From an uncultured Metabacillus sp. (lineage in GTDB: Bacteria; Bacillota; Bacilli; Bacillales; Bacillaceae), in contig NZ_CANNCR010000022.1 of NCBI RefSeq assembly GCF_947503125.1, forward strand, positions 1 to 64,000: a DNA stretch of 64,000 nt. The letters run 5' to 3'. A program made the position numbers and the translations under genes. The notes under the pieces are model-generated. The model had not been told where the DNA came from and did no database searches. It saw only the letters and a list, made by a program, of their open reading frames with translations. Shown here one piece after another: positions 47,273 through 48,400 of this stretch (positions are counted from its first letter, which is position 1; the number at the start of each line of letters is the position of its first letter).

Positions 47273-47467
47273 AGTAAGGATAAGCCTTTTAGTATGTGGT
47301 TACTGAATTTTTCATTGACATTAACGATTTTTAAATGTTTTAATGAAGTTAACAATATATGGAAGGGTGAAAGCGTACATGATTCAATAATCCGAACTTA
47401 GAATAGTCGATATCAAATACTTTCTATGTCCAGTGGATTTATGGTTCCTGTGATATATCGATTATTA
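47273..47467 (+). other. Non-coding segment before the attenuator
   Basis: About 195 bp with no gene. It must contain the promoter of the downstream leader; candidates are A/T-rich and none is convincing. Confidence 0.35.
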
Positions 47468-47594
47468 TTTCTGAGGTAGGATTACGATCATGTACTTTAG
47501 CTTGTGTAAGAAGAAGTCTGTTTAATGGAGTACTTTTTCGATACCAGGTATTTTACATTGACTCCTGCCTCAGAAATGAGTCCAGGAGTTTTTT
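47468..47594 (+). promoter_or_regulatory. Leader-peptide attenuator ahead of the vgb-like gene
   Basis: TTTCTGAGGTAGGA (47468-47481) is complementary, with one wobble, to TCCTGCCTCAGAAA (47563-47576). The second segment is also the 5' part of a terminator: ACTCCTG with CTCA, loop GAAA, TGAG and CAGGAGT, then six T (47561-47594). The two structures exclude each other. A short reading frame with its ribosome site inside the first segment lies between them. This is the layout of ribosome-mediated attenuators of antibiotic-resistance genes. Confidence 0.75.
47490..47525 (+). CDS. Leader peptide of the attenuator (11 aa)
   Basis: ATG 47490 opens an 11-codon frame, MYFSLCKKKSV, ending with TAA at 47523-47525. 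GAGGTAGG lies 10 bases upstream and is part of the antiterminator arm. A ribosome held here by an antibiotic would change which hairpin forms. The three consecutive Lys codons may slow translation. Confidence 0.65.
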   Translation: MYFSLCKKKSV

Positions 47595-47625
47595 GTTTGC
47601 AAAGAGATTTTAGGAGGAGTTAGGC

Positions 47626-48004
47626 ATGAATATAGAAATAAAAGAAATTGCAGTAGAACGTTCTAATTCAGCTCCCTATGGCATTGCAACGGATGATAAG
47701 GGAAATGTGTGGTTTACTCAACATAAAGCCAATAAAATAAGTTGTTTAGATAAATCTGGTCTCATAAGGGAATTTAGCATACCTACACCAGACGCCCAAG
47801 TATTATGCCATAACAACTGGCTTAGATGGTTCATTATGGTTTACTGAGTGGGGAGCAAATCAAATAGGACGTTTCTCCCTTGCTGATAGGCAAATAACCG
47901 AATATAAAATCCCTACCCCACAAGCTGAGCCACATGGTATTACTTGTGATAAAAATGGGAAAGTTTGGTTTGCTTTAGAGTGTAATAAATTAGGTCATAT
48001 ATAA
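47626..48004 (+). pseudogene. vgb: Remnant of a virginiamycin B lyase-like gene
   Basis: ATG 47626, behind TAGGAGGAG, begins a frame resembling the start of streptogramin B lyase: PYGIATDDKGNVWFTQHKAN, KISCLDKSG and EFSIPTPDAQ. After about 60 residues the frame shifts, and a second frame reads AITTGLDGSLWFTEWGANQI, GRFSL, EYKIPTPQAEPHGITCD and KNGKVWFALECNKLGHI. These match the end of the beta-propeller. About four blades of the usual 290-300 residue protein are missing, consistent with recombination between repeated blades. The product is not expected to be active, yet the attenuator and ribosome site look intact. Confidence 0.82.
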
Positions 48005-48029: not shown

Positions 48030-48079
48030 AAACCATTAGTTTACTGGAGTTTAATTATGTTAACTAATGGTTTCTTTTC
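48030..48079 (+). terminator. Terminator after the vgb remnant
   Basis: AAACCATTAGTT and AACTAATGGTTT form a perfect 12-bp stem followed by CTTTTCTG. Confidence 0.75.
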
Positions 48080-48145
48080 TGTAAATATTTAGTATCATTC
48101 TTATTCATCGGTGAATATTAATTTCCAATTAAGACATACTAACAG

Positions 48146-48384
48146 ATGGTTTTATCCATCTTAACGGGCAGTAATCCCCCTTTAAGATTCAAGTGAAGCT
48201 AAGATTCAAGTGAAGCTAAGAATAAGAAGATAAGAGGGAGATAAATGTCCGTAAGGATCTGACGAAGGACAGGATGTCCAAGGAAGGCGAAGCCACATGA
48301 TGTGGGGCTTTGAGCTTGATAAGTTTTTCTAACCATCAGGAGGGATGAGAAAACCACCATTGATGGAAGTCTCACTTTATACTT
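48146..48384 (+). repeat. Long form of the dispersed repeat (copy C)
   Basis: The left end TTTTATCC-ATCTTAACGGGCAGTAAT and the right end CACCATTGATGGAAGTCTC with ACTTTAT correspond to the two halves of copies A and B. Between them lie about 170 bases with potential structure: AAATGTCCGTAAGGATCTG, GACGAAGGACAGGATGTCC and a hairpin AAGCCACAT/ATGTGGGGCTT. A 17-bp tandem repeat (AAGATTCAAGTGAAGCT twice, 48184-48217) lies near the left end. No protein is encoded. Its right end is 17 bases before the next gene. Confidence 0.65.
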
Positions 48385-48400
48385 GCGATGAAAGGAATGT

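Follow-up and report, generated by a model that had tools for sequence, protein, structure and literature searches.

A vmlR-like candidate attenuator on a three-codon reading frame precedes a broken streptogramin lyase gene in Metabacillus

What would an RNA leader sense, and why would it still be present, when the resistance gene behind it has collapsed? The question is raised by one locus in the window, the 64-kb stretch of DNA from an uncultured Metabacillus analysed here, where, between 47315 and 48080 of the plus strand, a promoter-like site and a structured leader are followed by a terminator, a broken gene for the streptogramin B lyase Vgb, and a closing hairpin. The regulatory unit begins at ~47315, upstream of the region delimited in an earlier, sequence-only reading of this DNA, and in an alignment of relatives' leaders the conserved block starts ~110 nt before that region does. 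We consider it very probable that 47315-47595 attenuates transcription in the ribosome-mediated manner of vmlR, with a Met-Ile-Gln upstream open reading frame (uORF) at its core, and that it stands before a vgb gene broken by one recent deletion.

All parts of the unit lie on the plus strand. A putative sigma-A-like promoter (47315-47344), read from the letters, consists of TTGACA (47315-47320) and TTTAAT (47339-47344) with a spacer of 18 nt; TTGACA is also present in two related leaders, L005 and L006, and the latter has TTTAAT at a spacing of 17. The site is absent from the list of a consensus scan, which admits only downstream hexamers with A as their second letter. Downstream, the Shine-Dalgarno sequence GGAAGGGTGA (47361-47370), with GGTGA columns that are invariant in 18/18 aligned leaders, is followed by the likely sensing frame, Met-Ile-Gln-stop (47379-47390; ATG ATT CAA TAA, then TCC), in which ATGAT and TAA are likewise invariant (18/18). 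The uORF is overlapped by the 5' arm of an anti-antiterminator, which together with an inner stem, P1, occupies 47375-47413 in the fold and the column pairs; the 3' arm, again with P1, occupies 47455-47495 (fold, column pairs and complementarity shuffles) and includes the 5' arm of an antiterminator (47468-47481). The 3' arm of the antiterminator (47563-47576) in turn overlaps the 5' arm of an intrinsic terminator (47560-47595, a stem at 47560-47590 and a T run). Through these overlaps the anti-antiterminator and the antiterminator are mutually exclusive, and so are the antiterminator and the terminator.

Folding and comparison both bear on these helices. Read from the sequence, 47468-47481 and 47563-47576 form 14 pairs, including a single G-U pair. 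For the stretch 47460-47597 the fold has -44.4 kcal/mol (z -5.15), which none of 200 shuffles equals, and the terminator stretch 47559-47597 folds with z -3.70, with 1/200 shuffles as good; a simple terminator scan listed neither this terminator nor the hairpin that closes the unit. The upstream half, 47361-47500, folds at -41.6 kcal/mol (z -4.0; 0/200 shuffles as good) through pairs 47375-47384/47486-47495, 47388-47393/47479-47484 and 47397-47402/47470-47475, with P1 inside. The leader had no match in Rfam, either at the gathering score or at E up to 1.

When column pairing was computed across 13 leaders with no preset structure, it returned 9 pairs of the anti-antiterminator, 8 of P1, 14 of the antiterminator and 9 of the terminator. 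Two short helices were added to this structure by hand before pairs were counted; in the extended structure 92.3% of 440 cells pair, compared with 37-54% when partners are slid by 1-3 columns, and two-sided changes occur in 20 cells against a shuffled mean of 7.2, counts that come from alignments of related sequences and are not probabilities. The number of pair types in the same structure is not above that of shuffles, 95/500 of which reach it. In the antiterminator helix 97.8% of 181 cells are paired (33-57% when slid); taken alone, this helix has two-sided changes in just 2 pairs, a count that 207/500 shuffles reach. In the terminator helix 95.7% of cells pair, with two-sided changes in 5/9 pairs. 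We also scored the complementarity of the uORF to the downstream arm leader by leader, in 59 leaders (21 from vgb searches and 38 hand-chosen from the 56 loci described below): in 33/59, the window included, no shuffle of 30 matches the score, while in 26/59 at least one of 30 equals it, and in some leaders (e.g. L033, L108 and L121) the best pairing lies elsewhere. The antiterminator arm at 47468-47481 and the terminator, as named in the sequence-only reading, are correct on the evidence of folding and of the 13-leader comparison, the partner of the arm being 47563-47576.

That reading placed the sensor in an 11-codon frame (47490-47525), taken as a leader peptide whose ribosome site lies in the antiterminator arm and is sensed by its occupancy. 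The frame does exist, with GAGGTAGGA 8 nt 5' of its ATG, and the start at this place is ATG in 10/13 leaders of the same architecture and GTG in 3/13. The frames that begin there run from 3 to 29 codons, however, and encode mostly unrelated peptides, whereas the frame at the uORF position is Met-Ile-x in 12/13 leaders and Met-Ile in one, the sister leader L005, the uORF of which has two codons. ATCATGTAC in the 11-codon frame is complementary to the letters GTACATGAT where the uORF begins. CATG being self-complementary, the 3' arm of the anti-antiterminator carries an ATG as the mirror image of the uORF start codon, and pairing with the uORF segment accounts for the conserved letters near 47490. 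A ribosome on the 11-codon site would, in addition, block the antiterminator arm and favour termination, which is the wrong sign for induction. We therefore regard a sensing 11-codon peptide as highly unlikely, and 47490-47525 as more likely a part of the RNA switch; what is conserved in the leader is the three-codon uORF and not the 11-codon peptide. The same mirror relation predicts the weak matches (E 0.017-3.1) of our uORF model, R1, to the minus strand of the antiterminator arm in L009, L022 and L028.

The three-codon uORF recalls the leader of B. subtilis vmlR, which was tested in the laboratory and which (PMC9226507) likewise has a Met-Ile-x three-codon uORF (MIN) within an anti-antiterminator, an antiterminator in competition with an intrinsic terminator, and a resistance gene downstream. 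Comparison with leaders of the B. subtilis group adds a shared TAATC(C/T)TA...TAGGATTA core; these leaders (L131-L133) have the MIN uORF, TAATCTTATTTTT and a matching AAAAATAGGATTAG arm, and stand before an ABC-F gene (its class determined for L131) that we take to be vmlR. Several points differ: the vmlR leader controls an ABC-F protein, whereas the leader here stands before vgb, and a broken one; the leader here has the P1 stem counted above; and the NusG pause motif of vmlR, TTNTTT, is resembled by a TTATTT at 47465-47470 that by eye is not at the equivalent place, leaving pausing unsupported. The features of a vmlR-type attenuator found at this locus are a uORF with a Shine-Dalgarno sequence, sequestering by the anti-antiterminator, overlap of antiterminator and terminator, and a resistance gene directly downstream, this gene being the broken vgb in the window and, where L005 has its counterpart of the locus, a complete frame. 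The leaders of cplR, vmlR2 and lsaA, as described in PMC10201436, likewise carry ultrashort uORFs (MR[I/M], MK[L/Q] and MAGN), on which drug-stalled ribosomes are thought to allow expression of the resistance gene, as shown experimentally for cplR; their peptides and downstream genes differ from those of the leader here, and cplR has an additional translational attenuation through its terminator stem.

Based on this likeness, we suggest the following mechanism. In the absence of drug, ribosomes would clear the uORF, and 47375-47393 would pair with 47479-47495, a helix that encloses additional pairs and the stacked P1; the anti-antiterminator would then tie up 47468-47481, leaving the terminator (47560-47595) to form and end transcription. 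If a drug arrested the ribosome at the start of the uORF, 47375-47393 would be covered and the anti-antiterminator blocked; the freed 47468-47481 would pair with 47563-47576, the terminator would be lost, and transcription would continue into vgb. The toeprint reported for vmlR (PMC9226507) is 16 nt 3' of the first base, A, of the start codon, and a ribosome stalled in the same way would reach ~47395 here, covering 47375-47393. We infer by analogy the stalling of ribosomes, the response to drugs and a switch that still works in this strain, in which read-through would yield only Vgb fragments.

Vgb destroys streptogramin B. The inducers, again by analogy, are likely to be lincosamides, pleuromutilins and streptogramin A rather than this substrate of the enzyme. 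In B. subtilis, as PMC9226507 reports, virginiamycin M and lincomycin are inducers of vmlR, uORF(MIN) has to be translated, and induction is efficient only with drugs from which VmlR protects, retapamulin being such a drug and erythromycin a non-cognate one.

How widely the leader occurs was examined with R1, a sequence-only model of the uORF region. It was trained on the leaders found earlier, which therefore match by construction. It replaced an exact pattern search that had matched 5/9 genomes, had found no vmlR leader and had given one match in a reversed control. In the genome that the window comes from, R1 gives a single match at E <= 0.01, and it has matches in 92/397 genomes of the order and 61/398 of the class, two sets that overlap; matches near E 0.01 were not trusted singly. 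In the order and class searches together, the 56 best-scoring matches listed, a selection that favours strong matches, have a same-orientation downstream gene of class ABC-F in 18, MFS in 16, vgb in 8 and vat in 6, with 8 unassigned, so that one of these four classes follows in 48/56. Two of the 56 carry training letters (L078, which is the window, and L075, which is L006), and weight is placed on the other 54; the MFS genes weigh most, being absent from the training set. The loci without an assigned resistance class are L083, L084, L103, L107, L119, L126, L129 and L130; the gene at L083 by eye encodes an MFS-type pump; that at L107 was matched to an SDR enzyme, and those at L084 and L103 are without a match. 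Four further R1-match regions were examined beyond the 56.

A three-codon frame is present at the R1 position in 52/56 of these best-scoring loci, with Ile as the second codon in 42, Lys in 9 and Asn in 1. Among the four exceptions, the frame has seven codons in L122 and five in L130, no stop was found for that of L120, and at L129 the script detected no frame. L120 (before vgb) and L122 (before vat), in which the usual uORF stop is missing at the R1 match (1501-1545), are natural uORF variants. L130, a weak match lacking such a uORF, is probably false.

The sequence-only reading had called for a search for the leader before intact vgb genes; the same leader does stand before complete vgb in Bacillus sp. 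SA1-12, at the same locus, and in other Bacilli. The idea that a transcription attenuator of the antibiotic type precedes the collapsed streptogramin-lyase gene is supported. A constitutive terminator surrounded by chance pairings, with no regulation at all, would hardly come with well-supported, mutually exclusive helices and an invariant uORF, standing before resistance genes, and we consider it extremely unlikely.

Gene order varies behind the leader. At L030 it is followed by vat and then vgb; at L008 it is present with an ABC-F gene 5' of vgb; at L010, with the same two genes, there is no leader match on a contig that starts 217 bases before the ABC-F frame. A search of the genus with the leader DNA gave matches in 3/21 genomes, the window, L005 and L004; the last was dropped, being a 34-nt match inside an unrelated gene, by eye a chemotaxis-type receptor.

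The leaders themselves vary as well. At L008 (325-690), and also at L009, L011 and L037, two tandem antiterminator-like arms with their partners are visible by eye 3' of a single uORF. The vgb leader of B. glycinifermentans (L031, 2111-2370) by eye lacks a T run, and its arm equivalent to the 5' arm of the terminator could cover the vgb ribosome site, which would amount to translational control. The reverse case, a terminator-like remnant 5' of vgb with no match to the uORF model, is seen at L021, L024, L027 and L064, and in the last of these vgb itself has stops. At L035 and L110 the leader is followed by what by eye is only the 3' end of vat and then by vgb, which points to gene loss behind the leader on other occasions.

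The vgb gene behind the window's leader is a remnant in two frames. Its first piece (47626-47847) is a 73-codon frame that encodes blade 1 of the propeller followed by out-of-frame residues and matches positions 1-61 of the NCBIfam Vgb(B) profile (E 8.4e-21); against Pfam PF24684 it scores 49.0 bits, just below the cut-off of 50. The last blades follow in another frame (47807-48004; positions 230-288, E 1.6e-19), with the junction at ~47807. Both pieces thus match profile ends of the streptogramin B lyase Vgb (NCBIfam NF000096 and NF000022; Pfam PF24684), whereas the middle of the propeller is missing, in line with the earlier description of a gene that keeps only its first and last blades with a frame change. 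A complete propeller in one reading frame is not present, and judged from its letters the remnant is not expected to be a working lyase. A terminator-like hairpin follows at 48030-48080 (-14.2 kcal/mol, z -3.33; 1/200 shuffles as good).

In the sister locus of Bacillus sp. SA1-12 (L005), of the same genus, the vgb frame is complete and is bordered by the same flanks, which are 94% identical to those of the window on the aconitase side and 82-87% on the other. Aligned with the L005 gene in two BLAST pieces, the window matches on both sides of the junction and lacks ~500 bp; one deletion of this size accounts for the loss of blades as well as for the altered frame. The window comes from a draft assembly of 244 contigs and propeller blades are repeats, so one may ask whether the assembly is in error and the gene intact in the living strain. 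The junction lies mid-contig, however, between well-aligned pieces, and the blade repeats are probably too diverged to collapse; we think an assembly error very unlikely.

Similar damage is seen elsewhere. The vgb gene is also broken behind a matching leader in L009, L025 and L037; at L032 the gene start was not found, and at L016 there is an early stop in the frame. The defects in these five may be errors of draft genomes. In Marininema halotolerans (L012, 2992-3279), the same collapse has an independent counterpart: the first and last Vgb blades are joined in a single 95-residue frame with a TTG start, at a locus without a match to the uORF leader.

The age of the collapse can be gauged by taking L006 as the outgroup. 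In the leader, 9 changes fall on the window branch and 20 on that of L005, and in the vgb pieces 8+8 = 16 and 13+16 = 29, respectively; the resolved codon changes on the window branch comprise 5 synonymous and 1 nonsynonymous, with 18 codons unresolved. As there is no excess of substitutions on the window branch, the loss looks recent, and persistence of the leader after a recent loss needs no new function; an intact leader is then no sign of selection for an orphan sensor. The sequence-only reading had offered that the leader might be kept to control the small proteins that are left. Selection of this sort, on the remnant frames or on another gene behind them, would agree with the few changes in leader and pieces on the window branch and with the independent in-frame fusion in Marininema. 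However, the remnant pieces have changed about as little as the leader, for which a recent loss suffices; no start codon in the 3' piece opens a frame of at least 30 residues; the terminator-like hairpin closes the unit; and the Marininema locus is without the uORF match. We find continued selection on the leader very unlikely and see no support for control over small proteins; the switch has probably just outlived a gene that was lost recently.

Two other features of the window were observed. A dispersed repeat lies at 48150-48400, parts of which match 28 places in the same genome, itself included (E <= 0.001), and 48155-48376 has no match in the orthologous L005 stretch. At 1080-1267 there is a cobalamin riboswitch (110.4 bits).

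The class of mechanism is already known. In the literature searched, open articles without their supplements, among them PMC9226507, PMC10201436 and PMC5155152, we found no account of a leader of this kind for vgb or vat, or for the MFS pumps seen here. We lean, if only slightly, towards the view that a single transferable module, made up of a Met-Ile-x or Met-Lys-x uORF, an anti-antiterminator, an antiterminator and a terminator, serves across Bacilli as a shared sensor of streptogramin A, lincosamides and pleuromutilins, driving vgb, vat, ABC-F genes, MFS pumps and possibly others; before vgb the lyase would then answer to streptogramin A, and repeated loss of the downstream gene would leave orphan sensors behind. 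If this is true, a streptogramin B lyase would be switched on by the partner drug, streptogramin A, and not by its own substrate, and the tested sensor design of vmlR would extend to streptogramin lyase and acetyltransferase genes. The prediction would be that, with a two-component antibiotic, the enzyme directed at one component is induced by the other, and the module would provide a simple sequence signature by which inducible as well as silent resistance genes of Bacilli could be recognised.
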